NCBI GenBank assembly: GCA_017536885.1
Contig: JAFWCM010000053.1
Coordinates: forward strand, 1-61,504
DNA: 61,504 nt
Reading direction: 5' to 3'
DNA from: Solobacterium sp.
GTDB lineage: Bacteria > Bacillota_I > Bacilli_A > Erysipelotrichales > Erysipelotrichaceae
The notes under the pieces were generated by a model. That model saw nothing but the letters and a program-made list of their open reading frames with translations, was not told where the DNA came from and ran no database searches. Every line of letters begins with the position of its first letter. The stretch's first letter is position 1. The translations under genes and the position numbers were made by a program. Positions 10,723-37,965 of the stretch are shown here, in pieces.

Positions 10723-12109
10723 AGTTTGCTTCTCCGGGAATTTCGCTTCGTATGACGTGAAGCAGGAAGTATACGGATACTGCCATCATGATCGCTTCCG
10801 TGATCGGCTGGGCATAGATCATGCCATAGAAGCCGAAGACATGATTGAGAATCAGAAGCAGCGGCACATAGAGAACCAGCTGACGTACCAGGGTGATCAT
10901 AAATGCATGCATCGGCTTCCCCATCGCCTGAAAGGACATGCGGCACATCGATACCGCACCGACAAAGGGCAGAATCCAGAGAATCGCCCGCAGGATGACG
11001 GTTCCCTTTTCAATGACTTCCGGATTTTCCGTGAATACCGCGATGAGGTCAGGTGCGAAGATGCCGTACACCAGCATCACCACGGCTTCGGTGCCGCTGC
11101 TGACCAGCAGCCCCGCTTTGAGCACATCGATCATTCTCGTGTAGCTGCCGGCACCGTAGTTGTATCCCATGATCGGCTGCGTTCCGGCCGCGTATCCCTG
11201 GTAAATGTAATTTCCCAGCTGCATAATCTTCTGAGCGATCCCCATTGCCGCAACCGTGAGCTCACCATAGCTCACCGCAAGCCGGTTGTTTACGATATAG
11301 GCAGCCGAGGTAAGCAGAGTCTCGAGAGAGGCGGGAATCCCGACCCGGTAGATTTCCAGCACGATGTCCTTTTCGAGATGAAACTTCTGAAAGGACAGCG
11401 AGAGCAGGGTTTTCTTCCGCAGGTAAAACGAAAGCGCAACAAGCACCCCGGCCGCATTGCCGAGAATCGTCGCAATCGCAGCTCCCCTTACCTGCATGCC
11501 CAGGGCAAAGATAAACAGCGGATCCAGAATGATATTCACGATTGTACCGGCAATCATGCCGGCAATACTGATGCGCACCGATCCCTCGCTTCGAAGCAGC
11601 GATGATCCGGTATAGCTGCCCATCGTAAATACCGTGCCGGCAAGCAATATGCCGGCATACTGGCAGGTATAGTCAAAGGTCATCTCCCCGGCACCCAGTC
11701 CTCTTGCGACTGCCGGCAGGAACACCAGTCCCGGCACGGTCACAATGACTGCGCCGATCACGTTCAGAACAACGGCAGTCGCCAGGGTGGTCTCCGCCTT
11801 TTTTCTGTCCCCGCCGCCGAGGCAGCGGGCAATCAGAGATGCACTGCCGCTGGAAACCATGTTGGATACCGCCACTGTGATCATCATCACGGGATAGGCC
11901 AGGCTCACCGCGGCCAGCTGATAATCATTTCGCAGAAGTCCGATGAAGAAGGTATCCACGAGATTGTACAGAACCATGATAAACATGCCTGCAATCAGCG
12001 GAACACTCAGCTTCACGACTGCCCGTACCGGTTTTTCCTCTTTCAGAAGAAAGATTCTGCGGTCTTCTTTTCCAGGAGAACCGCCCGGCTGTTGTTGTAG
12101 TTCTTTCAT
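10721..12109 (-). CDS. MATE-family multidrug/cation antiporter
   Basis: A 462-residue integral membrane protein of the MATE family, with about twelve hydrophobic segments in two homologous halves. Typical features are the first helix LSVPLIAGMFIMVLYNLVD, the loop GLLRNDYQLAAVSLAYP, and SSGSASLIARCLGGGDRKKA. It probably exports organic cations or toxic metabolites using a sodium or proton gradient; the substrate is not predictable. It starts 9 bases after the stop of the alaX-like gene, so the two are one operon. A second MATE gene (18408-19778) is a different subfamily member and not a duplicate. Confidence 0.9.
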   Translation of the reverse strand: MKELQQQPGGSPGKEDRRIFLLKEEKPVRAVVKLSVPLIAGMFIMVLYNLVDTFFIGLLRNDYQLAAVSLAYPVMMITVAVSNMVSSGSASLIARCLGGGDRKKAETTLATAVVLNVIGAVIVTVPGLVFLPAVARGLGAGEMTFDYTCQYAGILLAGTVFTMGSYTGSSLLRSEGSVRISIAGMIAGTIVNIILDPLFIFALGMQVRGAAIATILGNAAGVLVALSFYLRKKTLLSLSFQKFHLEKDIVLEIYRVGIPASLETLLTSAAYIVNNRLAVSYGELTVAAMGIAQKIMQLGNYIYQGYAAGTQPIMGYNYGAGSYTRMIDVLKAGLLVSSGTEAVVMLVYGIFAPDLIAVFTENPEVIEKGTVILRAILWILPFVGAVSMCRMSFQAMGKPMHAFMITLVRQLVLYVPLLLILNHVFGFYGMIYAQPITEAIMMAVSVYFLLHVIRSEIPGEAN

Positions 12110-12118
12110 AGTCAGTGC

Positions 12119-13297
12119 CTATGCGCTCTCCTTCGCTCCAAGCACCTCATAAAGGGCAGCTTCCGCCTCAGAGCGCTTACATGCAAACATGCCCTGGACC
12201 AGTTCATCACTGCCCCCGCCCCGGCCTTTCAGCTGCTTGTTGAGATCTTTGATCAGCGGGCGAAGAGCCGATGCATGCGAGACGATCACGTAGCGGATCG
12301 CGCCGTCATCCTCACACAATGCCGCGGCGGTCAATGCGCCTTTTTCCTCAATGATCGCATTGGCGAAATAGCGCAGGGCATCGTGATCCGCATTCTCCGC
12401 AAACGCGATTACCAGCGGCTCATTGTCTTTCATCGCTGTGATCGACCGGCGCATGGCTGCTTCACTGGCAATCCGAAGCTTCTGCCTGGTTTCGTAATAA
12501 CTGTTCTGAAGCTTCTCTGCGGCAGCGGCGGTTTCGTTCATCTTTGCGCTGAGAAGATGGGAGATGCGCATGTTCTGATCCATGATCATCCGCATATACT
12601 CCTCCGCCCGTTTGCCGGCGAGCATTTCGATCCTCACCCCGTTTTTGTGGTTTGCCAGGGAGATCAGCTTGATATAGCCGATTTCTCCGGTGGAACGAAG
12701 ATGCGTTCCGCAGCAGGCGCAGACATCCGCTTCCGGAACCGTGACAATGCGGACTTCACCGCTGAGTTCCTTCTTGGAGCGATAGTCCATGTCACGCAGT
12801 TCTTCTTCGCTCGGAATATCCGCTCTGATCATAAGGTTTCTGCGCACCAGCGTATTTGCCATGGCTTCGATCTTCATGCATGCATCCCAGTCCATCGGGC
12901 CGTTGAAGTCGATGATGACCGCATCCTCTCCCATATGGAAGCCGACATTGTCATAGCCGAACGTTTTATGGATCAGCCCCGAAACCATATGTTCCGCACT
13001 GTGCATGACCATATGATCCAGGCGGTTTTCCCAGTCGAGAACGCCATGGACTTCGGTTCCCTCTTCCATGGGTTCGGACAGGACATGCATGATCCTTCCC
13101 TCGATCTTTCTCGTATCGCTGACCGGTTTTCCGTTCAGTGTGCCGGTATCGCCCGGCTGTCCTCCCCCCTCCGGATAAAATGCGGTTTCTTCGAGTTCCA
13201 CCGCATAGTTCTTCCGGTATGGCTGACAGGATTTCACTCTGCTCGTAAACTCACGGCAATAGGAATCCCGGTAGAATAATGTATCAAATTCACTCAT
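12119..13297 (-). CDS. Alanyl-tRNA editing protein (AlaX-L type)
   Basis: A 392-residue free-standing editing protein that hydrolyses mischarged Ser-tRNA(Ala) or Gly-tRNA(Ala). It has the N-terminal beta-barrel of AlaRS-type editing proteins, zinc-binding HSAEH and C-x3-H in CCGTH, and a C-terminal DHHA1-like domain with GGGSDELVQG, so it is the long AlaX form. The ATG at 13297 (MSEFDTL) is preferred: an in-frame ATG at 13339 would lie upstream of the TATAAT at 13322-13327. It is first in a two-gene operon with the MATE exporter; a functional link is not obvious. Confidence 0.88.
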   Translation of the reverse strand: MSEFDTLFYRDSYCREFTSRVKSCQPYRKNYAVELEETAFYPEGGGQPGDTGTLNGKPVSDTRKIEGRIMHVLSEPMEEGTEVHGVLDWENRLDHMVMHSAEHMVSGLIHKTFGYDNVGFHMGEDAVIIDFNGPMDWDACMKIEAMANTLVRRNLMIRADIPSEEELRDMDYRSKKELSGEVRIVTVPEADVCACCGTHLRSTGEIGYIKLISLANHKNGVRIEMLAGKRAEEYMRMIMDQNMRISHLLSAKMNETAAAAEKLQNSYYETRQKLRIASEAAMRRSITAMKDNEPLVIAFAENADHDALRYFANAIIEEKGALTAAALCEDDGAIRYVIVSHASALRPLIKDLNKQLKGRGGGSDELVQGMFACKRSEAEAALYEVLGAKESA

Positions 13298-13321
13298 TTT
13301 TCTGCTTTTCTCCCGACGAAT

Positions 13322-13327
13322 ATTATA
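13322..13327 (-). promoter_or_regulatory. -10 element of the alaX-MATE operon
   Basis: Perfect TATAAT on the minus strand, 24 bases before the ATG at 13297. The -35 is unclear. It is back to back with the promoter of the gene at 13436. Confidence 0.6.
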
Positions 13328-13383
13328 CCTGTTTTCCACTATACAATCGTGTTGGTTTGTTTATTATCAGCCGGGCGGGAAGA

Positions 13384-13392
13384 TGGTAGTAT
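13384..13392 (+). promoter_or_regulatory. Extended -10 promoter of the GlsB/YeaQ-type gene
   Basis: TG-g-TAGTAT, with TTATCA at about 13364-13369 as a possible -35 at 17 bases. The downstream gene has AAGGAGG at 13421-13427. Confidence 0.6.
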
Positions 13393-13435
13393 AAGGTCGT
13401 TCCGGAAAGGGAACCATATAAAGGAGGTCCATGTT

Positions 13436-13681
13436 ATGTGGCTTATCTATTCTCTGCTGATCGGACTTGTGGCAGGTTATCTGGCATCCCGTCTGATGGG
13501 AGTTGACTCTTCCAACATTATCAAAAACATCGTGCTCGGAATCATCGGATCGTTCGTCGGCGGACTGGTCGGCTCCCTGATCAGTCTGAAAGCAACCGGC
13601 CTGATCGGCTCCGTCATCCTTGCGGTGATCGGTTCCTGCATTTCCATCTGGGTATACCAGAAATTCCTGAGAAAAAACTGA
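13436..13681 (+). CDS. GlsB/YeaQ/YmgE-family small membrane protein
   Basis: An 81-residue protein that is almost entirely membrane-embedded, with three hydrophobic helices and the Gly-rich pattern VLGIIGSFVGGLVGSLI of the GlsB/YeaQ/YmgE family (often called transglycosylase-associated). Members are frequently stress-induced; the biochemical role is unknown. The ATG at 13436 has an AAGGAGG site 8 bases upstream and an extended -10 promoter. It is a single-gene unit closed by a strong terminator. Confidence 0.85.
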   Translation: MWLIYSLLIGLVAGYLASRLMGVDSSNIIKNIVLGIIGSFVGGLVGSLISLKATGLIGSVILAVIGSCISIWVYQKFLRKN

Positions 13682-13692
13682 TCCGACTGAAA

Positions 13693-13727
13693 ACTGCGAA
13701 GCGATGGCTCCGCAGTATTTTTTTATT
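13693..13727 (+). terminator. Rho-independent terminator
   Basis: ACTGCG (13693-13698) pairs with CGCAGT (13711-13716), followed by ATTTTTTTATT. Confidence 0.8.
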
Positions 13728-13745
13728 TTCTTCCTGCCCCGTTTC

Positions 13746-15092
13746 TCAGCCGGGGTAGAAGGTATAGGTATTCTTCCCCTGCTTCTTGGAATTATACATC
13801 GCCTCATCCGTCTTCTCAAACAGCTTGGAAGGATCGGAAACCTGTGATCCGTGGACGATTCCGACACTGATCGAAATCGGCGGCAGGCCATCCACTTTCT
13901 GTTCCAGTTCCCTGTTGATATCCTCCATCTTGGAGGCGATCAGGCGGTCCTGCTTTTCATTGGCATGAACCATGAATACGACGAATTCATCTCCTCCCAC
14001 CCGGCAGATGTAATCATCGGAGCGGAAGTTTTTCTTCAGAACACTGACGAGCCTGACCAGTACCTTATCTCCCGTTTCATGTCCGTAGGTATCATTGATC
14101 GTTTTGAAATTATCCACATCAAACAACATCATGTAGGTCGTATAGAGGTCGATGCTCGAAAGCAGAAGATCATATCCGGCCCGGTTGTACGCACCGGTCA
14201 GCTCATCGTGGCTGGCCTTGAAGTTGAGCCGTTCCAGACTGGTCTTGTATGCGGAATACATCCGGTTGTATGCCTTGGCGAGATACCGGAATTCATTTGC
14301 CCCGACTTCCGGGATGGGACTGTCATCTTTGATCCGGTCCACCGCCTGCAGTACCGGGTTGATTCCGAGATAATCCGTGAGCCATACCATGAACAGAATC
14401 GCCAGGATCAGAACCAGGATGATCCCCCGGACAATTCTCAGTTCGGTGTACAGGGAATCGAGTTCCCTGTTATCGATATCCTTGGTCAGCTTGTCTATTT
14501 CCGCAATGCTCTGGCGGATATGTCCCCGGATCAGATCCTTCTGGTTGTAATAGTCATCGCTCATCACGCTTTTCGCAGCCCGTTCCATCTTTTCCCGGGC
14601 GGAAAGTTTCTGATCCTCTTCCGAAAGGGCCACCGCCGCAATCACATCGGGAAGTTCCGTGATGTTCTTTGCCTCCGCCGTCAGGCGGATCGCATAGTAT
14701 TCGGCATCCATGAGCTTCACGGATTCATTCATCGCCTTCTGAAGTTCTTCCATCGCGGCCGCGCTGGCAGGATCTTCCCCCATCTTTGAAAGCGCCTCTT
14801 CCCGCCGGTTAGCCTCAAATGCCTCCCGGAAGTATTCATCCATGAAGCGCTTTTCGCCGTTGATCGTGAACCGCTGTACCTGCTCGGTCAGATAATCGGA
14901 CGCATCGAGCATCTCCAGGGATGCTTTTTCCATTTCCATATGCTCTTCCGCCGCATTGGTCACATGTCGGAAGGTAACTGTCAGATGATAGGTGGAATAC
15001 ACCAGAAGACCGGAGAGAATTACCGCAATGGCGACAAGGCAGGTATGAATCGCCTTAAGCGAGATTCCTTTGTTCTTCAGTTCTTTGATCAT
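13746..15092 (-). CDS. Membrane diguanylate cyclase (GGDEF)
   Basis: A 448-residue enzyme predicted to make cyclic di-GMP. Helix 1 (about 12-36) and helix 2 (about 216-238) flank an extracytoplasmic, mostly helical sensor domain of about 180 residues. A short linker leads to a C-terminal GGDEF domain with intact active site RVGGDEF (366-370). The product-inhibition site RxxD (RSDD) lies five residues before it, so feedback control is likely. I chose the ATG at 15092, which has AGGAGG at proper spacing; the ATG at 15110 lies before that site. The start lies inside the 3' end of the upstream EAL gene (about 38 bases overlap), indicating coupled translation. Confidence 0.92.
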   Translation of the reverse strand: MIKELKNKGISLKAIHTCLVAIAVILSGLLVYSTYHLTVTFRHVTNAAEEHMEMEKASLEMLDASDYLTEQVQRFTINGEKRFMDEYFREAFEANRREEALSKMGEDPASAAAMEELQKAMNESVKLMDAEYYAIRLTAEAKNITELPDVIAAVALSEEDQKLSAREKMERAAKSVMSDDYYNQKDLIRGHIRQSIAEIDKLTKDIDNRELDSLYTELRIVRGIILVLILAILFMVWLTDYLGINPVLQAVDRIKDDSPIPEVGANEFRYLAKAYNRMYSAYKTSLERLNFKASHDELTGAYNRAGYDLLLSSIDLYTTYMMLFDVDNFKTINDTYGHETGDKVLVRLVSVLKKNFRSDDYICRVGGDEFVVFMVHANEKQDRLIASKMEDINRELEQKVDGLPPISISVGIVHGSQVSDPSKLFEKTDEAMYNSKKQGKNTYTFYPG

Positions 15093-18039
15093 GGCAGTCC
15101 CTCCTGTCATTCAAAGCCTGTATTTCCCTGCGGAGAATCTTCGTTTCGAATTCCTCCGCCGGCAAAGGCATAGAGAAGTAATATCCTTGAACAATATCAC
15201 ATCCTGCGTCTCTCAGCAAATTCAGCTGGTTTTCCGTTTCCACACCTTCCGCAATCACAGGCACCTTAAGATAGTCCGCAATATCGATAATCAGCTCCAC
15301 AAGGCGGAAATCATGATCATTTCTCTCAATATTCCGCACAAATGCCATATCCATCTTCAGGATATCGACCGGCATGGAAGAAAGCATGTTCAAAGAGGAA
15401 TATCCCGATCCGAAATCATCCATTTCGATCTCATATCCCCGCAGACGAAGCTGTTCGATCACCCGGATCAGATAGCCGGCATCTTCCGTATAGGCGGATT
15501 CCGTCACTTCAAGCTTCAGATCGCTGCTTTTCAGCCCGTATTTTTTCACCAGCGAATCCAGCGTTTCGATCAGCCCCGGATCAAAGACATCCACCCGGGA
15601 AAGGTTGACGGAAACCGGCAGAACATAACCGAAGCGATCCCGCCAGGCAGCGATCTGCTTTACGGCCTCTTCCCAGACATAGTGATCCAGCAGGCTGATC
15701 TGCCCGTCTTTTTCCAGCAGCGGGATAAACTCACCCGGGGAAATCGTGCCGAGTTCCGGATGAATCCAGCGGACCAGTGCTTCGGCGCTGGAAAGTTCCG
15801 GCGGCTCACACTGTATCCGGTATTTCGGCTGATACCATACATGAAACTGCTTTTCGGCCAGGGCATTGCGCAGGTCGTTCAGCAGCCGCTGGTCGATCTC
15901 TTCCTGATGTCCCATCCTGGAATCATAGATCATCACCTGTGACTTGAATTCTCCCCGCATCTTTCCGCATGCGGTTCTCGCACAGTCAAACTGCAGGATC
16001 GGCTCCATGCCTGCCTGCCACGGCTTGACGCCCATGCGCAGGCGCACCGATGCATTTCCGGAAATGCCGTCAACGCTTTTCTGAAGCCGGTCCAGAAGCG
16101 GCTGCCAGTCTTTTCTTTCCAGGCAGTAGAGATCAAACCGGTCCGCTTCATAGCGGCAGGCGATTCCTTCCGTTTCGCTGAGGAACCGGGTGATCTCCTC
16201 TCCCATCTTTTTCAGAACCCGGTCGCCGAACTCCCTTCCGTTCAGGGCGTTGACGGAGTGAAAGCGGTCGATGTTCACCACAATCGCATCCATGTGCTTT
16301 TCCGGATGTTCGCGGTAGATTCTTCCCGCATAGGCAAGGAAGAAATTCCAGTTGTACAGTCCGGTCAGAGGATCGCGTTCGGTTTCCGAAATCAGCCGCC
16401 TTCCCTCGTTCGCTTTTTCCTCCGCCTTCATCGACCGCAGCACCAGAAGCAGAATCACCACGGTGAAAACCGCCGCAGCCGCAACGGCATACGGGAGGTT
16501 GTCGCGGATATATTCGGAAAACGTCACCCTCTCATCCTCAAAGGAATACGAGGTCAAAGCGGTATTGAGCGAAGGATTGGGATAGAGGTTGATGATCTTG
16601 GTCAGGATGGAATACAGGCAGTCATCGCTTCTGTTCATCGCAAAACAGAGATCCATGGTTGCGCCGGTCGCAAGCGCGGAGAGATTGTTTTTATCAAACA
16701 GATCCCTGACCCGGTTGATGCGGTAGCTGCTGACCAGGGTGCAGTCCGCCTCGCCGTCATGAACCGCCCGGAAGGTTTCTTTACTGCTGTCGTAATAGCG
16801 GATATCCCAGTCCGGGAAGTTGTCCTTCAGAAAAGTCTCATGGTTGGGATGACCCTTCAGCACCGCAGCGGTCATCTGTGTTTCCGGCGAAACGCCCTTA
16901 TGATCCGCGGTCCTTACCGCCGCATACATCTGGGTACTGACAAAGGGATCGGTGATGATGATGCCGAGCTGTTCGCCGTCATAGGCGCTGAGATTGACGG
17001 GAAACACACAGTCGATCTCCTCCCGGGACAATGCCCTCAGGACATCTTCCGTCGTATCATATCCGCGTGCCTCAAAGCTCAGTTCCGCATTCTTCTGACA
17101 GGTTTTCGCAAAGGAGAGAAACTCCGAAAGGGCACCGGTCAGTTCACCCGTAACCGCATCAATATCGCAGAAGGGAAGAAAATTCTTCCGGTAGCCGACC
17201 CGGATCACTCCGTGTTCCTTCAGCCAGGTTTTCTCCTCCGCACTCAGGAAGCTGTTGACTGCGCCTGCCCGATTGAATTTCTCGGTCATCTGCTGGTTGA
17301 ATTCGCGGTTGTTGTCCAGTATCCGGTTCATCGCCGTATCGAGTTCCCGCTTGAGATCGGGGCGATTCTTATTGATGCCGAAATAGAAATCGGAAGAGCC
17401 GATCTTGCATACCGGCACCACATCGGCGCTGTTGCCGTAGGTGTCGAGTGTCACCAGAACATCGATTTCACCGTGATCCAGCATTTCCAGCAGCTCCGGC
17501 GTCTTCCCGCTGAGCTCAGTGATCTGCGGCGTCACCCGATGCGCATCCGCCCAGGCGATGAACATCTGTTCCTGAATGCTGTTTTTGTTTACGCCGACGC
17601 GCTTTCCGTTGAACGTGGAGAAATCATCCGGGCGAATCTCGGTATTGTCCGGAGAGATAAAAGCCAGATAGTCCTCGGTGCCCATGCCTTCGGCGGAATA
17701 CAGGATCTTCTCTGCCCGCTCCGGGGTATAGGAGACATCGCTCAGAAGATCGATCTCCCCTGCCACCAGCTTCTCAAACAGCTCCGACCAGCTGCCCTCC
17801 ACATATTCATAGGTCCAGCCGGTGAACACGGCGATCCTTCTCTGATATTCATAGCCATAGCCGGATTTTCTTCCGAACTGATCGGTCCGGTGAAACGCGG
17901 ATTCATACCAGCCGACCCGGACCACTTTCGAGCCCGGTTCCTGTGCCCTCAGAACCAGCGGCGAAAAAACGGAAAGCATCAGCGCAGTCAGCCCTGAAGC
18001 CAGCAGAATTTTTTTGAAATACGCACGGAACAACGTCAT
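15055..18039 (-). CDS. SBP-sensor, degenerate GGDEF, EAL phosphodiesterase
   Basis: A 994-residue signalling protein. A signal/anchor segment (about 10-35) is followed by two tandem solute-binding-protein domains of the SBP_bac_3 kind (about 38-270 and 285-515), then a membrane helix near 530-550 (AVAAAAVFTVVILLLV). Next is a GGDEF-like domain whose signature has decayed to EADRF (631-635), and an EAL domain with E753-A-L-V, DDFGSGYSSL and the loop GYYFSMPLP. Expected activity is c-di-GMP hydrolysis controlled by an extracellular small ligand, as in BvgS-like sensors. The ATG at 18039 has CGGAGG 6 bases upstream. It is followed by an overlapping GGDEF gene, so synthesis and breakdown enzymes share one operon. 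Confidence 0.9.
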   Translation of the reverse strand: MTLFRAYFKKILLASGLTALMLSVFSPLVLRAQEPGSKVVRVGWYESAFHRTDQFGRKSGYGYEYQRRIAVFTGWTYEYVEGSWSELFEKLVAGEIDLLSDVSYTPERAEKILYSAEGMGTEDYLAFISPDNTEIRPDDFSTFNGKRVGVNKNSIQEQMFIAWADAHRVTPQITELSGKTPELLEMLDHGEIDVLVTLDTYGNSADVVPVCKIGSSDFYFGINKNRPDLKRELDTAMNRILDNNREFNQQMTEKFNRAGAVNSFLSAEEKTWLKEHGVIRVGYRKNFLPFCDIDAVTGELTGALSEFLSFAKTCQKNAELSFEARGYDTTEDVLRALSREEIDCVFPVNLSAYDGEQLGIIITDPFVSTQMYAAVRTADHKGVSPETQMTAAVLKGHPNHETFLKDNFPDWDIRYYDSSKETFRAVHDGEADCTLVSSYRINRVRDLFDKNNLSALATGATMDLCFAMNRSDDCLYSILTKIINLYPNPSLNTALTSYSFEDERVTFSEYIRDNLPYAVAAAAVFTVVILLLVLRSMKAEEKANEGRRLISETERDPLTGLYNWNFFLAYAGRIYREHPEKHMDAIVVNIDRFHSVNALNGREFGDRVLKKMGEEITRFLSETEGIACRYEADRFDLYCLERKDWQPLLDRLQKSVDGISGNASVRLRMGVKPWQAGMEPILQFDCARTACGKMRGEFKSQVMIYDSRMGHQEEIDQRLLNDLRNALAEKQFHVWYQPKYRIQCEPPELSSAEALVRWIHPELGTISPGEFIPLLEKDGQISLLDHYVWEEAVKQIAAWRDRFGYVLPVSVNLSRVDVFDPGLIETLDSLVKKYGLKSSDLKLEVTESAYTEDAGYLIRVIEQLRLRGYEIEMDDFGSGYSSLNMLSSMPVDILKMDMAFVRNIERNDHDFRLVELIIDIADYLKVPVIAEGVETENQLNLLRDAGCDIVQGYYFSMPLPAEEFETKILRREIQALNDRRDCHDQRTEEQRNLA

Positions 18040-18053
18040 AATCTGCCTCCGAA

Positions 18054-18082
18054 CTTCCCGGATTCTCTGAGAATCCGGGAAG
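18054..18082 (-). promoter_or_regulatory. Leader hairpin just upstream of the EAL gene's ribosome site
   Basis: CTTCCCGGATTC (18054-18065) and GAATCCGGGAAG (18071-18082) form a perfect 12-bp stem with a 5-base loop. It sits directly beside the CGGAGG that serves the start at 18039. There is no U-tract after it, so it is more likely a translation or mRNA-stability element than a terminator. Confidence 0.55.
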
Positions 18083-18242
18083 AATGAATATGCCTGAAAA
18101 GGCATTTCTGCCCTGTTGTTAAAGCAAGAACAAAACAATGTGTTTCTATCTTTTATTTTATCTGTTTTTTCACGGAAAATAGCTCTTTTTCCGTATTTTT
18201 AAAGGGTAGATAAAGTTTTGCGGCAGGGAAGGCAAAGAACAG

Positions 18243-18266
18243 ATTGACTTAAGATGACGCTTAAGT
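18243..18266. repeat. Nested, mutually exclusive inverted repeats
   Basis: TGACTTAAG/CTTAAGTCA and AAGATGAC/GTCATCTT overlap and share arms, so only one hairpin can form at a time. A TTTTT run follows on the plus strand. No gene reads through it on that strand in an obvious way. Function unknown. Confidence 0.45.
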
Positions 18267-18350
18267 CATCTTTTTCAGTCAGCTGATCCCGATCTGTTTC
18301 CTGCTGAGCGCAGGTCAGTTATGATGTTCAGTCCGACGCATTCAAATCAT

Positions 18351-18372
18351 AAAAAAAAGACGGTCACCCGTC
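18351..18372 (-). terminator. Terminator of the second MATE gene
   Basis: On the minus strand GACGG-GTGA-CCGTC (a GNRA tetraloop) is followed by TTTTTTTT. Confidence 0.85.
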
Positions 18373-18407
18373 AGGACAGCCGCGGTATTGACCTGCAGAA
18401 GAAGGGA

Positions 18408-19778
18408 TTACAGTTCCTTCATCTTGATTCGGTAAATACGCCGGAAAGCAATCACATTCAGAACCGTGCATAATATCCAGCAGATCGGAAAGGAGATGTA
18501 GATCGACTCAACCGTTCCGGCTGCCCGCGCATAGGTGAGGATCCAGGTCAGCCGGAATGCGACGGAACAGAACAGCGATATATACAAAGGCGTCTTCGCA
18601 TCCCCGAGCCCGCGTTCACAGCCGCTCACCACATTCATCGTTCCGCAGAACCCGAAGAAAAGACACATATAAAACATCCTGCTTTTTGCACATTCAACGA
18701 TTGCCCGCTCGGAAGTGAACAGAGATGCAAGCGGATCAGCGAAGAGATACAGAAGAACGCCGACGGCCTCAGCTGCGAGAAAAACCGTGCTGATCGTGAT
18801 CAGGAATATGTTCCGCACGCGTTCCTTTTCCTTCGCCCCGTAATTCTGCGAGATATATACCGTGCTGGCGGACGCAAACCCGACAAACGTCAGAACCATC
18901 AGACCTTCAATCGTTGTCGCTATCGTGTTGCCGGCAATGACCGGCGTATCAAACCGGTTGACAGCGGAGGCGATGATCACTCCGGACAAATTCAGAATGA
19001 TACCTTCCATGGATGCCGGAATTCCAATTGAAAACACCTGTTTCATCCCGGAAAAGAGTGTGAGTTTTTTTAAATCCAGCTTCAGTTCATCTTCTCTTCC
19101 GCAAAGGAACACAAGGAACATGACTGCCAGAACAACCTGCGAAATCACCGTCGCCGCACCGACACCTGCCACATTCCAGTCAAATACGATCACAAAGAAG
19201 AGATTCAGCAGGATATTCAGAACTGCCGCCGAGATCTGAAAGAAAAACGGGATAAAGGAATTCCCCCTGGCCTGAAGCACAGAGGCGAGAAACGTGCTCA
19301 TGACGGTCAGCGGTACACCGAGAAAGTAAATGCGGAAATAAAGCACCGCATCCGCCAGGATTTTATCCGGACAGTTGAGAAACCGAAGAATCATCCGGGA
19401 AGACAGAATTGCGGCGATACTGATCAGACTTCCCGGCAGAAGTGCAGACAGCGGCAGGCTGTGCAGCAGCCGGCTGACCTTTTCCGGCCGGTTTTCCCCG
19501 TAATATCTGCCTGCTGTGACGGTTACTCCGGAAGACAGTTCCGTGAGGCCTCCCACAAGAAGGTTCAGTATGGAAGCGGATACCCCAATCGCGGAAATGG
19601 CGTTCGCATGCCCGAAGCGTCCGATTACGATTGTATCCGCAAAGGAAAAAAACATGGTGAGAAGCGTCGAGGCCGAGATCGGAAGGGAGAATCGAATCAT
19701 TCCCTTCAGGATGGATCCGCGGACCGGATCGACTTCATATCTCTTCGTCTCTTCGTTCATCGAGAATAATTCAATCAT
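18408..19778 (-). CDS. MATE-family efflux transporter
   Basis: A 456-residue membrane protein with about twelve predicted helices and the MATE pattern: LPISASTLLTMFFSFADTIVIG in the first helices, the loop GRFGHANAISAIGVSASI, and VTAGRYYGENRPEK. It is a Na+ or H+ coupled exporter; the substrate cannot be predicted. The ATG at 19778 has only a weak AGGA upstream; a second ATG at 19760 is an alternative. A 170-base gap separates it from dusB, with a palindrome TTTCTGATCAGAAA at 19859-19872 and a possible promoter, so it is probably its own unit. Confidence 0.88.
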   Translation of the reverse strand: MIELFSMNEETKRYEVDPVRGSILKGMIRFSLPISASTLLTMFFSFADTIVIGRFGHANAISAIGVSASILNLLVGGLTELSSGVTVTAGRYYGENRPEKVSRLLHSLPLSALLPGSLISIAAILSSRMILRFLNCPDKILADAVLYFRIYFLGVPLTVMSTFLASVLQARGNSFIPFFFQISAAVLNILLNLFFVIVFDWNVAGVGAATVISQVVLAVMFLVFLCGREDELKLDLKKLTLFSGMKQVFSIGIPASMEGIILNLSGVIIASAVNRFDTPVIAGNTIATTIEGLMVLTFVGFASASTVYISQNYGAKEKERVRNIFLITISTVFLAAEAVGVLLYLFADPLASLFTSERAIVECAKSRMFYMCLFFGFCGTMNVVSGCERGLGDAKTPLYISLFCSVAFRLTWILTYARAAGTVESIYISFPICWILCTVLNVIAFRRIYRIKMKEL

Positions 19779-19858
19779 TTCATGGCATTCCTGACAAGAA
19801 CCGGATCCCTTTCAGAATCATTCCCGGCAAATCTCCAGATGCCCTGTGTTCCCGGTGA

Positions 19859-19872
19859 TTTCTGATCAGAAA
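19859..19872. promoter_or_regulatory. 14-bp perfect palindrome upstream of the MATE gene
   Basis: TTTCTGATCAGAAA is its own reverse complement. It lies in the 170-base gap between dusB and the MATE start. On the minus strand, TTTGAA, 17 bases, TATCAG is a candidate promoter just upstream of it. An operator for regulated efflux is possible but unproven. Confidence 0.4.
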
Positions 19873-19948
19873 GCCGCAGCGGCGCTGATACAAACCGGAT
19901 ACCGCGTTTCAAACAACGGCCGACAAAAAGGGCTCAGCGCCTCCTTCC

Positions 19949-20923
19949 TCAGAAAGTGTTCAGCCTTGTCTGATACCGGTCCAGAATATCGCCGAATTCC
20001 GCCAGGGAATTCATCTCCGTCATCTCCTTGCGCACTTTGGCCGCATGCGGCATGCCGTCAAGATAATTTCCGGCAAGTCCCCGCATCATGGAGATTCCCG
20101 TGCGCTCCCCTTCATACCCGCATAAGAGATTACCGTATTCCCGGCACAGCGCAATCCGCTCTTCATACGAGGGCATCACGAATGGTTCACCCCGCTCTTT
20201 GGCGAGAATTTCCCGGATCAGATACGGTTTTCCGAGCAGCCCGCGGCCGATCATCACGGCATCGCACCCGGTTTCCGCAAACATCCTCCGGGCATCTTCC
20301 GCTGTTTTAATATCCCCGTTTCCGATCACCGGAATCGACACCGCTTCCTTCACCATCCGGATGTACGCATTGTCGGAGCTGCCCTGATACAGCATGGATT
20401 TCGTCCGGCCGTGCACCGCAACCGCCGATACGCCGACTCCTTCCAGGGCTCTGGCAAGTTCGGGCGCATTGATGTGTTCTCTGTCCCATCCCGTCCGCAT
20501 CTTCACCGTAACCGGCCGGTCCGCATGTTTCACCACCGCTTCGGCAATCTGCACGGCAAGGTCGGGATGCGCCATGAGATAGCTGCCGGCATGAGACTTC
20601 AGCACCTTGGGAACAGGACAGCCCATATTAATGTCGATGATATCGCAGGATGTGTTTTCACAGAGATACTCCGCCGCCTCCGCCATCGTTTCCGGATCCC
20701 CTCCGAACAGCTGCAGCGAAACCGGATGTTCTTCTTCCAGCACAGCGCACATATCAAAAGTGCGCTCATTTTTATAATGGAGCGCCTTGTCGGAGATCAT
20801 CTCGGATACCGTAAGTCCGGCCCCGGCTCTGCGGTTCCACAGGCGGTAGACCGGATTGGAAATCCCCGCCAGGGGTGCCGCGATGATCCGGTTTTCAATC
20901 GTTACGTTTTTTATGTTCCACAT
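19949..20923 (-). CDS. dusB: tRNA-dihydrouridine synthase
   Basis: A 324-residue FMN enzyme that reduces specific uridines in the tRNA D-loop. Signatures are [13 protein letters not shown] at the N-terminus, [13 protein letters not shown] with the catalytic cysteine, [20 protein letters not shown] and the phosphate-binding IGNGDIKT...GRGLLGKP. This fits the DusB/Dus1 bacterial family. The start overlaps the 3' end of hslO by 29 bases, so translation is coupled. The hslO-dusB neighbourhood agrees with the gene order downstream of ftsH I remember from Bacillus. Confidence 0.93.
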
Positions 20924-25447: not shown

Positions 25448-25585
25448 TCTGTCCCGGCTGCGTTCTGTCACGATATTGCCTCAGGCGACATCGCGCTTGA
25501 AAATCACCGTACTATTTTATATATGTGAATTAGGACTGCAGATATCCTTTTCTTGTGGATCGGGAGTCTTTCGGGATCAGACAAT

Positions 25586-28540
25586 ATGAGCAAATATCAG
25601 TATGCAAAAAACGAATTCGCGCTGATGGAACACACGGGAATTCCCCTGGCGGTGTATCAGTATATTGACAAACGGGTGATCTCCCTCGTTATTTCCGACG
25701 GGTTCTGCCGTCTTTTCGGCTATTCCCGCGAAGAGGTTTACGATGTCATGGACAATGACATGTACCGGGATACGCATCCCGATGACATCTCGCGCATCAG
25801 CAATGCGGCGATCAGCTTCGCCCGCGAAGAGACGGAATACAATGTCGTCTACCGCACCCGGAAAGGCGATTCCTACGAGATCATTCATGCGATCGGCCAG
25901 CACATCTATAAGGAAGACGGAAGCCGCATCGCCGTGGTCAGCTATACGGATGAGGGTCCCTACGATCCAAGCACCGCATCCACGGGAAAACTGAATGCGG
26001 CGTTTCAGGAAGCTCTGCACAAGGACAGCCTGGTACGGCACCATTACTACGATCATCTGACCGGCCTGCCGAGCATGTCGCACTTCTTTGAACTGGCGGA
26101 AATCCGGATTCAGCGGCTCAGGGAAGAAGGAAAAGTACCTGCCATTCTGTTCATGGATCTTGCCGGGATGAAATTCTTCAACCGGAAATTCGGATTCGGA
26201 CATGGCGATGATCTTCTGCGCGGCCTCGGCAGAATCCTGGTCGAGGAATTCGGAAATGAAAACTGCAGCAGATTCGGTCAGGATCATTTTGTGGTTCTCA
26301 CCGATACGGATCATCTCGAAGAGAAAATCAGACGCGTCTTTGACAAGTGCCGCAGTCTCAACAGCGGCACCAGCCTGCCGGTCCGCACCGGTATCTATCT
26401 CTTTGACAAAGCGGAAACGATCATTATCGCCACCGCCTGTGACCGGGCGAAATACGCCAGCGACATCATCCGGGAAGTCACCGCCAGCGAATACCGCTAT
26501 TTCAATGACGGCATGTTGGAAGATGCATACAAGCGTCAGTACATCATAAACAACATTGACCGCGCCATCAGCGAGAACTGGATTCAGGTCTACTATCAGC
26601 CGATCGTCCGCGCCGTCAACGGAAAGGTCTGCGACGAAGAAGCCCTCGCCCGCTGGATCGATCCCGAAAAGGGAATGTTCTCCCCTGCGGATTTCATTCC
26701 GGTGCTTGAGGATACCCGGCTGATCTGGAAGCTCGATCTCTTTGTTCTGAACCAGGTGCTCAACAAGATGAAGGGTCAGGCAGATGCCGGCCTTCACGTC
26801 GTTCCCCAGTCGCTGAATCTCTCCCGGGCCGACTTCGACTCCCTCGATATCGTGGAAGTAATCCGAAAGCGGGTGGATGAAGAAGGAATCGAACGGGACA
26901 AGCTCACGATCGAAATCACCGAAAGCATCGTCGGAAAAGACTTCGAGTTCATGAAGGAACAGATCCAGCGCTTCCGGGATCTCGGCTTCCGTGTCTGGAT
27001 GGATGATTTCGGGAGCGGATATTCCAGCCTCGATGTCCTGCAGAACATTCGCTTTGATCTCATCAAATTCGACATGCGCTTCATGCAGAGATTCTTCGAC
27101 GGTCCGGAAAGCAAAATCATCCTCACGGAACTCGTGCGGATGGCGGTCGGCCTCAACATCGAATGCCTTGCGGAAGGTGTGGAAAAAGAAGAACAGGCAA
27201 CTTTCCTCAGAGACATCGGCTGTATGAAGCTTCAGGGCTATTATTACTGCAAGCCGATCCCTCCCGAAGAGATCGTGCGCCGCAACCAGCTCGGCATCCA
27301 GATCGGATACGAAAATCCGGACGAAGCGCTGTATTACGAATCCGTCGGCCGGGTGAATCTCTTTGACGTATCCTCATTCGCCGGACCGGATCTCAATGCC
27401 TCCCAGAAGTATTTCGACACCCTGCCGACGGCGGTTTTTGAAATCAATAAAGATACCTTACGGGTGATCCGCGCCAATAAAACCTACCGCGACCTGATCC
27501 GGAAGTTCTCCCCCCGTAGAGACATCGAAAGCAGTATTCGGTTCAGCGATCTCGAAGTGACCGCCTTTGCCAATGCGGTGCGGCAGTGCGCGGAAACCGG
27601 AAACCGGATATTGATCGACGATGTCGACAGTGACAACACCACGATTCACGCCATCCTGCAGCGGATCGGCATCAACCCCGTCACCGGCTCAGCCGCCGTC
27701 GCGGTCGGTGTGCTTTCGATCAGCGATTCCTCCGATACCAAACCCGCGGTCACCTATGCCAATATCGCAAAGGCGCTCTCGGCCGACTATGCCTATCTGT
27801 ACTACATCAACCTCACCAACGATCAGTTCGTGGAATTCTCCTCCGGAACTGCCGGCAATGATCTCTCCGTCGAGCGTCATGGCAAAGATTTCTTCCAAGC
27901 GGCAGTCACCGACGCAAAAACCGTTCTGTACAGCGAAGACTATGAGGAATTCATCCGCCTCTTCACAAGGGACAACATCCTTCAGACCCTGAAGGATTAC
28001 GGTTCCTTCATCCACCGGTACCGCATGGCGACAGAGAACGGACCGCGCTGGGTCATGATGAAGATCAATCTCATGCCGGATGATCCGGATCACATCATCA
28101 TCGGCGTCACTGATATCGACGCCCAGATCCGCCAGCAGGATGCGTTCGATCAGGTGATGAAGGAAGCTGTCATCTATTCGCGGATCAGCGCTCTGGCCGG
28201 CAATTACATCTGTATCTACAATGTCGATCCGGAAACGGAACACTATACCGAATTCATCGCCGACAGCGATTTCGAAAGCCTCGGTCTCCGTAAGGAAGGG
28301 ATGCCCTTCTTCGAAAGGGTCCGGAAGGAAAGTCCCCGCGTCATCCATCCCGAGGATCTCCCGCGGCTTCTGAATTCCCTGACGAAGGAAAATGTACTGA
28401 AGACGATCGAAGCCCACGGCAGCTATGAAATCTCCTACCGGATGATCCTGAACAGGGAAGTGATCCCGGCGCGGCTGAAGGCGGTGTGGATCTCGGAGAA
28501 AGGGCATCCCCAGCTGATCATCGGCGTCAACAGAATCTAA
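25586..28540 (+). CDS. PAS-(degenerate GGDEF)-EAL protein with C-terminal PAS repeats
   Basis: A 984-residue soluble signalling protein. An N-terminal PAS-like domain (about 5-125) is followed by a GGDEF-like domain with the signature decayed to GQDHF (231-235), so no cyclase activity is expected. The EAL domain has E352-A-L-A, DDFGSGYSSL and LQGYYYCKPIP, so c-di-GMP hydrolysis is likely. The last 400 residues look like three further PAS-like units (from about 600, 730 and 860). No transmembrane helix is evident, so the signal is cytoplasmic. The ATG at 25586 is preferred over a TTG at 25553; the Shine-Dalgarno is weak. A -35/-10 pair TTGAAA, 17 bases, TATATG at 25497-25525 would give a leader of about 55 bases. 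Confidence 0.88.
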   Translation: MSKYQYAKNEFALMEHTGIPLAVYQYIDKRVISLVISDGFCRLFGYSREEVYDVMDNDMYRDTHPDDISRISNAAISFAREETEYNVVYRTRKGDSYEIIHAIGQHIYKEDGSRIAVVSYTDEGPYDPSTASTGKLNAAFQEALHKDSLVRHHYYDHLTGLPSMSHFFELAEIRIQRLREEGKVPAILFMDLAGMKFFNRKFGFGHGDDLLRGLGRILVEEFGNENCSRFGQDHFVVLTDTDHLEEKIRRVFDKCRSLNSGTSLPVRTGIYLFDKAETIIIATACDRAKYASDIIREVTASEYRYFNDGMLEDAYKRQYIINNIDRAISENWIQVYYQPIVRAVNGKVCDEEALARWIDPEKGMFSPADFIPVLEDTRLIWKLDLFVLNQVLNKMKGQADAGLHVVPQSLNLSRADFDSLDIVEVIRKRVDEEGIERDKLTIEITESIVGKDFEFMKEQIQRFRDLGFRVWMDDFGSGYSSLDVLQNIRFDLIKFDMRFMQRFFDGPESKIILTELVRMAVGLNIECLAEGVEKEEQATFLRDIGCMKLQGYYYCKPIPPEEIVRRNQLGIQIGYENPDEALYYESVGRVNLFDVSSFAGPDLNASQKYFDTLPTAVFEINKDTLRVIRANKTYRDLIRKFSPRRDIESSIRFSDLEVTAFANAVRQCAETGNRILIDDVDSDNTTIHAILQRIGINPVTGSAAVAVGVLSISDSSDTKPAVTYANIAKALSADYAYLYYINLTNDQFVEFSSGTAGNDLSVERHGKDFFQAAVTDAKTVLYSEDYEEFIRLFTRDNILQTLKDYGSFIHRYRMATENGPRWVMMKINLMPDDPDHIIIGVTDIDAQIRQQDAFDQVMKEAVIYSRISALAGNYICIYNVDPETEHYTEFIADSDFESLGLRKEGMPFFERVRKESPRVIHPEDLPRLLNSLTKENVLKTIEAHGSYEISYRMILNREVIPARLKAVWISEKGHPQLIIGVNRI

Positions 28541-36591: not shown

Positions 36592-37965
36592 ATGACACCT
36601 ATTCAAACAGACATTCCGGCAAAGAAAAAAAACATAAAAGCTTCCGGCATTCCTGCCAAAAAGCTTCTTTTTCCGGTGATAGCCGTCCTCTCGGTTCTCC
36701 ATCTTCTGATCATCGTGGTGATCCTGATGGTCAACAGCACCAGTTCCCAGCTCAGCACCATCATGCAGAATGCGGGAAATTACACCCAGGATGCGACATC
36801 GCTGCTGGCGGGGTCTTCCCTGCTTTCGGAAACCTCTTCCAATTACATCCTGATGCCGATCACGGAAAAAGAAGAAAACAATGTGGGACCGCTCATGGCG
36901 TACGCTCAGGAGCTGCAGGAAGATCACCGCGGCCCGGACGTTCTGGCGCGTTTTAAAACCTACGATGTTCCCCCGGAAGCGGTTGAACGTCTCGCGCTTG
37001 CCTCGGACAGCGCGGAATTCATGAAGAACTCCCAGCTGCACGCCATCGCTCTGATCCGCTCCGTCCATCCCCTCCCCCCGATTCCGGAGCTTGAGGCAAT
37101 TCCCGATTTTCCGCTGAGCCAGAATGAACTTGCGATGCCGGAAGAGGATCGGATCATTGCCGCCCACCAGCTGATCCTGGGTACCGAATACGGCGAAAAC
37201 AAGGGATCGGTCTCCCAGAATGTCAACGCCTGTATCGGCATCCTTCAGAGCGCTTCCTCCCAGCGGGCAGCCGAAGCCGGAAGACAGCTCGCCATCCTGA
37301 GATCCATACTCTGGGCGGATACCCTGTCGATCATCATCATTCTGATCATCACCTTCGTGATTCTCTTCCGTGAGATCATCCAGCCTCTGATCACCTTTGC
37401 CCAGCTGATCCGGGAAGGCGAAGCACTCGACGAGACAAAAGGCATTCAGGAAGTCCGCCTGGTCGCCGCTTCTTATAACGATCTGCGAAAGCGCAGAGAT
37501 TCCCTCGACGCCATTCTGCGCTCGGCCGCGGAAACGGATGCCCTCACCAACCTCCCCAACCGCTACCGGTTTGAACAGTTTGTTCTCGAAGCGGAGGAGA
37601 GCGGATATTCCGTTGCCGTAGTCCTGTTTGATGTGAACTATCTGAAACAGACCAACGACAACCTCGGCCATCTTGCCGGCGACAAGCTTCTGTGCCGGGC
37701 TGCCGAATGCATTTCCTCCTGTTTCGGCAAAAACTGCTTCCGCTTCGGCGGTGATGAATTCGCCGCAATCGTCGTTGGCTGCACCCCGGAAACGATGGAG
37801 AAGATGACAAAGAAGTTTGAGGAAATGCAGAAGGAGAAACAGGTCAGCATCTCCTATGGCTGTGCTTATACGGAAGACATCGGGCGCACGACCTTCCGCA
37901 AACTGCTCGATGAAGCGGATCACAAAATGTATGCCCACAAACAGAAAATACATCAGATGTCCTGA
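36592..37965 (+). CDS. Membrane diguanylate cyclase (GGDEF)
   Basis: A 457-residue protein predicted to synthesise c-di-GMP. After a Lys-rich N-terminus come helix 1 (about 25-47), an extracytoplasmic helical sensor (about 48-240) and helix 2 (about 242-262, SIIIILIITFVILFREI). The GGDEF domain starts near AETDALTNLPNRYRF, and the active site FGGDEF is intact (386-390). Unlike the cyclase at 13746, the RxxD inhibitory site is absent (GKNC in its place), so product feedback is not expected. The sensor differs in sequence from the other membrane cyclase, so each probably reads a different signal. Confidence 0.9.
   Translation: MTPIQTDIPAKKKNIKASGIPAKKLLFPVIAVLSVLHLLIIVVILMVNSTSSQLSTIMQNAGNYTQDATSLLAGSSLLSETSSNYILMPITEKEENNVGPLMAYAQELQEDHRGPDVLARFKTYDVPPEAVERLALASDSAEFMKNSQLHAIALIRSVHPLPPIPELEAIPDFPLSQNELAMPEEDRIIAAHQLILGTEYGENKGSVSQNVNACIGILQSASSQRAAEAGRQLAILRSILWADTLSIIIILIITFVILFREIIQPLITFAQLIREGEALDETKGIQEVRLVAASYNDLRKRRDSLDAILRSAAETDALTNLPNRYRFEQFVLEAEESGYSVAVVLFDVNYLKQTNDNLGHLAGDKLLCRAAECISSCFGKNCFRFGGDEFAAIVVGCTPETMEKMTKKFEEMQKEKQVSISYGCAYTEDIGRTTFRKLLDEADHKMYAHKQKIHQMS

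Follow-up and report, generated by a model that had tools for sequence, protein, structure and literature searches.

An EAL gene overlapping a diguanylate cyclase gene in Solobacterium sp. as a candidate antagonistic c-di-GMP pair with two external inputs

Introduction

How signals are kept separate in cells with dozens of c-di-GMP enzymes is an open question, and one stretch of DNA from Solobacterium sp. (assembly GCA_017536885.1, contig JAFWCM010000053.1, 61,504 nucleotides, hereafter the window) raises it in compact form. In this bacterium, which is probably gut-dwelling, a gene for an EAL protein runs into a gene for a diguanylate cyclase (DGC). Do the two genes encode a dedicated unit for breaking down and making c-di-GMP, or are they neighbors that happen to share a message? 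The reading that we consider probable is that this two-gene operon encodes an antagonistic membrane c-di-GMP pair with two external inputs and feedback on synthesis; enzyme activity, ligand, signal direction, and physical contact of the pair are predictions from sequence. The DGC family occurs alone, beside EAL genes, and fused to EAL domains, a natural series that provides test material for dedicated pairs, and the nearest named records of the bacteria in this series are largely from the ruminant gut.

Results

Two overlapping genes and the limits of their transcript

The preliminary description of the locus gave an overlap of about 38 bases between the two genes, and the gene coordinates confirm this figure.

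15055..18039, minus strand: gene for a predicted EAL-type phosphodiesterase (PDE), 994 aa, ordered SBP1-SBP2-membrane helix-degenerate GGDEF-EAL (SBP, solute-binding protein-like domain)
13746..15092, minus strand: predicted diguanylate cyclase gene, 448 aa (translation, Pfam, GGAGG before the ATG)
15055..15092, minus strand: overlap of the EAL and DGC genes, 38 bases (gene coordinates)
15100..15104, minus strand: GGAGG, likely ribosome-binding site of the DGC gene, within the 3' end of the EAL gene, seven bases before the ATG at 15092
18359..18372, minus strand: stem with a T run, resembling a terminator and following the MATE-like gene upstream (consensus match only)

The EAL gene starts at the ATG at 18039, with GGAGG ahead of it, and its translation has a signal-like N-terminus. 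An alternative TTG start at 18138 was dropped because the GGAGG precedes the ATG at 18039 instead, and an alternative ATG at 15110 for the DGC was dropped because its GGAGG stands before the ATG at 15092. Domain scores and conservation rule out a chance open reading frame or a misread gene.

The genes overlap by 38 bases on one strand, with a GGAGG inside the first, and we infer that the two lie on one transcript. The gap upstream of the EAL gene is 368 bases and holds the terminator-like stem, a possible upstream operon boundary, and the next likely gene downstream of the DGC (13349-13681) is convergent; together, these flanks point to a likely transcript that would carry the EAL and DGC genes only. 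The names that we give to the neighboring genes (MATE, AlaX, DusB, and Hsp33) are our own reading of their sequences. A promoter scan of 12500-19500 found no minus-strand site within the EAL gene for the DGC, placing the minus-strand promoter-like sites at 13819-13791 inside the DGC gene and at 18374-18346 upstream of the EAL gene; with six sites in total versus 5.3 expected by chance, the scan says little. No c-di-GMP riboswitch or other known RNA was found at gathering score in 12000-20000. The gap upstream of the EAL gene also contains a perfect 9-pair inverted repeat, TGACTTAAG..CTTAAGTCA (18245-18268), a possible operator.

The EAL protein carries tandem periplasmic sensors and a full set of catalytic residues

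The EAL protein matches the Pfam families EAL (1.1e-65), GGDEF (5.6e-14), and SBP_bac_3 (1.1e-15), the last as a single stretch within SBP1.

17248..17934, minus strand: SBP1, aa 36-264, fold of an amino-acid-binding protein; R108 is present in each of the 61 aligned modules
16480..17247, minus strand: SBP2, aa 265-520, BvgS VFT2-like, no Arg at the place of the SBP1 Arg (hand alignment)
16402..16497, minus strand: membrane helix at about aa 515-546 (a hydrophobic run in the translated sequence; model helix 484-515)
16066..16377, minus strand: degenerate GGDEF domain, RYEADRF (domain match and family alignment)
15166..15879, minus strand: EAL domain, with E753, N812, E844, D874, D875, K895, E931, and Q951

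The eight EAL positions that we take to be catalytic are conserved in a family alignment of 61 rows, the window included: six are present in all 61 and two in 59, the exceptions being truncated frames. The top solved EAL proteins aligned to this domain have the same catalytic letters, except for 4rnf, which has NN for DD. By this full set of metal and catalytic residues, the protein fits an EAL-type c-di-GMP phosphodiesterase. The GGDEF domain ahead of it is degenerate, as had been described: RYEADRF replaces xxGGDEF, and N replaces the residue that we take to be the first metal Asp. This degeneration runs through the family, in which the catalytic Glu has become Arg in 35 of the 61 rows and His in 15, and the first metal Asp has become Asn in 52.

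Both of the solute-binding-like sensor domains proposed earlier were borne out, SBP1 by Pfam and SBP2 by a sequence match together with the model fold. SBP2 has no Pfam match. It matches the periplasmic part of BvgS by sequence, and in the AlphaFold model of the EAL protein (pTM 0.72), it adopts an SBP fold that aligns with BvgS VFT2 (3mpk; Z 24.5, rmsd 3.1, 230 aligned) and with the PBP domain of RmcA (7ejg; Z 22.4, rmsd 3.3, 233 aligned). SBP1 groups with amino-acid-binding proteins by sequence as well as by model: the model aligns with a glutamine-binding protein (4g4p; Z 24.1, rmsd 2.4, 218 aligned), and amino-acid SBPs make up the majority of the SBP1 rows listed in the fold comparison. 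Sequence and model agree on tandem SBP domains ahead of a membrane helix, as in the CdgH and BvgS receptors.

R108 of SBP1 is found in all 61 aligned double-SBP modules, five of which come from proteins of other than EAL type, and the nearby S103 in 59 of them. This Arg sits where family-3 SBPs hold the ligand carboxylate, matched by motif rather than by superposed coordinates, and we take its role to be that of R109 in CdgH, as given in an excerpt of PMC5431781. The corresponding stretch of SBP2, NLSAYDGEQLG, contains no Arg, the position being set by hand alignment. SBP1 Asp 199 is conserved in 52 of the 61 modules, without a confident match to the Asp that binds the amine in known amino-acid SBPs. 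The earlier suggestion of an amino-acid ligand thus gains from the invariant Arg of SBP1 and loses at SBP2, which lacks it.

The cyclase has an intact active site and a sensor of its own

The DGC matches Pfam GGDEF at 7e-34 and divides into two parts.

14328..15092, minus strand: DGC sensor, aa 1-255, a pair of long helices separated by shorter ones, two membrane stretches included
13770..14216, minus strand: intact GGDEF domain, with the I-site R357-x-x-D360 at about 14013-14024

The RxxD reported earlier for this gene is indeed there, five residues ahead of GGDEF in the motif FRSDDYICRVGGDEF. Across 42 sequences of the DGC family, the GGDEF signature and the metal and substrate residues, whose roles we assume, are invariant, and R357xxD360 is kept in at least 90%. 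Signature, metal Asp, substrate residues, and I-site together make the protein fit a diguanylate cyclase.

Two membrane stretches flank a helical periplasmic part, and the GGDEF domain follows (model mean pLDDT 86.9, pTM 0.51). No Pfam family passed the cut-off over the window's sensor (best COX14, 0.024); the best Pfam matches for the sensors of 16 family members were DUF6377 (0.00066, two members), TPR_8 (0.0014), and CHASE3 (0.008; one member each). A PDB profile search with the sensor gave a single match, at 0.15, and the best 50 rows listed by Foldseek for the whole DGC were all GGDEF matches. The sensor is a separate family with its own periplasmic helices, absent from the preliminary description. 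With a sensor on the DGC as well, there are two possible inputs to the operon, and a single external ligand setting both activities, as once proposed, is not implied.

The pair is conserved in a small clade of EAL relatives

In a scan of a one-genome-per-species collection, relatives of the EAL protein were found at 66 loci, many with record titles that mention the rumen or ruminant gut and Clostridia. Adding loci from further genomes, excluding short fragments and split frames, and dropping the short copies L067-L070 resulted in 65 double-SBP EAL genes, of which L043 and L051 are identical. With at least 1400 bases of downstream sequence required, 59 of the 65 can be judged, and the other six end too soon. 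A DGC of the window's family lies directly downstream in six of the 59 (window, L195, L003, L005, L052, and L066) and is lacking in 53; another DGC lies directly downstream in five of the 59, and a DGC lies directly upstream in ten of the 65. When any family and both orders are counted (up to 400 bp, same strand), 21 of the 65 genes abut an intact-motif DGC and 44 do not, six of the 65 ending too soon downstream to judge.

In the EAL tree, built by a quick method with SH-aLRT supports only, the window, L195, L003, and L005 form one clade (95), L052 and L066 fall elsewhere, and the pair label needs two changes. The same clade of four appears in the DGC tree (98/97), and both trees group the window with L195 and L003 with L005, the window-L195 fork of the DGC tree being weak (91/47). 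On these trees, the pair is co-inherited within the clade of four. The second clade of two pairs has damaged EAL genes, shortened in L052 and broken in L066. Linkage to any DGC requires at least ten state changes on the EAL tree (61 rows, 23 linked, with contig-end rows excluded and two linked genes present twice). Whether the pair is kept together in relatives, a check proposed in the preliminary description, therefore has a divided answer: it is kept in the clade of four and missing for 53 of the 59 judgeable EAL genes.

The overlap itself is a different matter. Spacing between the genes is -4 in L195, +9 in L003, +8 in L005, and +15 in L052 versus -38 in the window, so the overlap, which had been read as the mark of coupling, is not conserved in length. 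From the last catalytic Gln, the window's EAL tail runs for 44 residues, the longest of the 61 rows (next 39), and this unusually long C-terminal tail gives rise to the 38-base overlap. By this comparison, the overlap is local to the window and the adjacency is older. The proposal of opposing activities in one coupled message stands as far as both catalytic motifs are kept and weakens where it leaned on the length of the overlap.

A synteny comparison of the DGC and nine neighbors with other loci, whose flanks were mostly 5 kb or less, found no EAL relative in the same neighborhood; hits beyond window copies and DGC matches were scattered, at 29-44% identity (L037, L057, L082, L115, L125, L127, and L218). 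EAL relatives at 59-68% identity (L003, L005, L008, L037, and L061) have record titles naming Actinomycetota, Chloroflexota, and Pseudomonadota besides Bacillota, reflecting either transfer between gut phyla or mislabeled metagenome bins.

The DGC family is joined to EAL domains in several ways

The DGC sensor profile matches in 36 of 315 genomes of the order. Of 41 family matches of at least 100 bits, 40 were examined (G177:C94 was left out), and nine carry an EAL domain in the same protein. Eight of these fusions run degenerate GGDEF-EAL-sensor-GGDEF, in line with the order of the gene pair in the window, and make up a single clade spanning two genera; the ninth, L144, has the reverse order. 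The eight may stem from one event and L144 from another. Eight of the 40 abut a same-strand EAL gene within 400 bp, two are divergent from an EAL gene, four have one further off, and 17 have none in the stretch examined, some of them near contig ends.

Motif calls in this series vary in firmness. Three of the nine fused EAL domains fail the strict Lys-motif pattern, making hydrolysis by those three less sure, and because this pattern may match elsewhere in the domain, a "full" motif call is no proof. Strict patterns also flagged the L195 EAL domain as lacking Glu and that of L144 as lacking DDFG, residues that alignment and a looser pattern show to be present. Among the eight EAL-adjacent DGCs, the GGDEF domain of L208 looks degenerate, and L216 is a very long branch.

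Partners also differ. In G015, the EAL protein ahead of the DGC-family member has no SBP matches, and the closest double-SBP EAL gene of that genome lies on another contig. In the window's own genome, a second family member precedes another EAL gene by 186 bases (C207), and on C176 (L127) another double-SBP EAL gene shares four bases with a different DGC; overlaps of this length with other DGCs also occur at L032, L033, L034, and L047. As sequence patterns, linkage and fusion in relatives lend support to functional coupling, and the fusions of the DGC family, together with the other DGCs that may adjoin the EAL gene, suggest partner exchange. The recurrence of adjacency, overlap, and fusion is an argument for the usefulness of joining opposite activities more than for a fixed pair of exactly this kind.

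The genome-wide background bears on these counts. The window's own genome (G000) has 25 EAL and 64 GGDEF matches in 3.4 Mb, and with so many the pair may not act alone; many same-genus genomes have few or no matches to the EAL protein and DGC. Clustering of DGC and EAL genes is also a wider feature of these genomes: across four of them, 8 of the 92 other GGDEF-only genes have a same-strand EAL match within 4 kb. A Fisher test comparing the 8 of 32 unfused DGC-family genes that abut an EAL gene with these 8 of 92 gave p 0.03, to which we attach little weight: distance rules differ between the two sides, relatedness is ignored, the lists were sorted by hand, and the 32 include one gene that was not fetched, 31 having been examined.

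Comparison with known systems

Antagonistic operons such as dgcO-pdeO and tandem-SBP c-di-GMP enzymes such as CdgH are already described. We take the dgcO-pdeO products not to be a pair of membrane receptors, and RmcA presumably has one SBP. In E. coli, dgcO-pdeO (dosC-dosP) combines a DGC and an EAL PDE as an antagonistic pair in one operon (excerpts of PMC8846402 and PMC5635695), with heme on PdeO and oxygen as the signal sensed by the pair (excerpt of PMC8846402). The window resembles it in holding DGC and EAL PDE genes together as a predicted antagonistic pair and differs in that the PDE gene leads and its end overlaps the start of the DGC gene. The nearest described case for the window's sensors is V. 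cholerae CdgH, which has tandem periplasmic SBPs and whose PBPb-I binds L-Arg (excerpt of PMC5431781). Both proteins place tandem periplasmic SBPs on a c-di-GMP enzyme, and the CdgH structure 5GZS was a fold match; the output of CdgH, however, is GGDEF, whereas that of the window protein is EAL, and its PBPb-II has R343 where SBP2 has no Arg.

P. aeruginosa RmcA joins an SBP_bac_3 sensor to a GGDEF-EAL phosphodiesterase and senses L-Arg (excerpts of PMC8846402 and PMC9028604). It is like the window protein in pairing an SBP sensor with GGDEF-EAL, its PBP domain 7ejg being the one that aligns to SBP2, and unlike it in having PAS domains, as the excerpt of PMC9028604 gives it. By the precedent of RmcA (same excerpt), a ligand at an SBP may raise hydrolysis in the window protein. 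The sensor kinases BvgS and EvgS share the tandem Venus-flytrap periplasmic part, but their output is a histidine kinase; 4q0c_A aligned over model residues 1-486 with Z 24.4 and an rmsd of 13.4, so high that the relative placing of the domains is not fixed by it. On whether DGCs and PDEs work in dedicated pairs, an E. coli two-hybrid survey, as excerpted from PMC5635695, describes hubs instead. Our literature searches on c-di-GMP, rumen, and diguanylate cyclase returned no title on such pairs among the matches listed, and none was found joining SBP and EAL, which is no proof of absence.

Discussion

In the reading that we prefer, the first protein would be a PDE in which an alpha-amino acid or a similar carboxylate most likely closes SBP1, with SBP2 probably relaying the movement or reading another ligand; the single membrane helix and then the degenerate GGDEF domain would carry the signal from the SBPs to the EAL domain. 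The second protein would be a DGC that senses through periplasmic helices of its own and is inhibited by its product at the RxxD site. With PDE and DGC held in ratio by translational coupling, local c-di-GMP would answer to two external inputs, and its synthesis would be under feedback. From this arrangement, we infer set-point control of c-di-GMP by the pair.

The two genes could instead encode unremarkable c-di-GMP enzymes placed on one message by the general clustering of such genes, each enzyme with its own input and output. The crowded genome (25 EAL and 64 GGDEF matches in 3.4 Mb), the 8 of 92 other GGDEF-only genes near EAL genes, and the majority of EAL relatives that are unpaired all fit independent neighbors; we nevertheless find this fairly unlikely, given that both trees group the four pairs alike, that 9 of 40 DGC relatives are fused in one order or the other, and that four-base overlaps with other DGCs recur. 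A closer form of coupling, in which the EAL protein is mainly a regulator (a trigger enzyme) that binds ligand and c-di-GMP and switches the DGC by contact, hydrolysis being secondary, would agree with the recurrence of partner DGCs and fusions and has a counterpart in E. coli, where PdeR frees DgcM from direct inhibition (excerpt of PMC5635695). The catalytic positions, however, are kept in the 61 aligned rows, most of them without a DGC, and we regard this as improbable.

What the flytraps bind is a separate matter. The ligand might not be an amino acid, or the SBPs might have no ligand at all and take their signal from partner proteins or the membrane, as the missing Arg of SBP2 and the SBP1 Asp 199 without a confident match to the amine-binding Asp would allow. 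Against this stand the invariant SBP1 Arg, the neighboring S103 in 59 of 61, and the dominance of amino-acid SBPs among the SBP1 fold rows listed, which leave it rather doubtful in our judgment.

An extension of the antagonistic-pair reading, speculative and in our view unlikely as a whole, treats the two partners as exchangeable. The DGC family would be repeatedly wired to EAL (behind, before, divergent, or fused in either order), and the double-SBP PDE would repeatedly gain DGCs, giving an amino-acid-switched membrane complex in which partner exchange rewires the second signal that is weighed. If this were true, the amino acid in the flytrap would set the sign of net c-di-GMP turnover, and by exchanging partners gut bacteria would change the second signal that is set against their amino-acid supply.

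Related sensors at other loci

Sensors of both kinds occur in other settings. The four-base overlap in the window's own genome (L127:2394-9031, C176) belongs to a cluster in which the double-SBP EAL gene is followed by a 540-aa DGC and then by a double-SBP protein; this third gene had no GGDEF or EAL match in the scan, and its cytosolic end differs. Elsewhere in the same genome, a similar double-SBP sensor is joined to two GGDEF domains (L130:5479-8586) and, by the look of the sequence, to a histidine-kinase part (L132:1892-4000). By their predicted domains, these two loci show one kind of sensor with several outputs. In G277, proteins of 563 and 571 aa at L217 and L218 match the DGC sensor profile (two of them in L218) with no GGDEF match, and at L218 Hsp33-like and Dus-like genes adjoin, as in the window. 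The window itself encodes, on the plus strand, a distant member of the DGC sensor family at 24% identity (36592-37965) and another degenerate-GGDEF/EAL protein of 995 aa (25553-28540).
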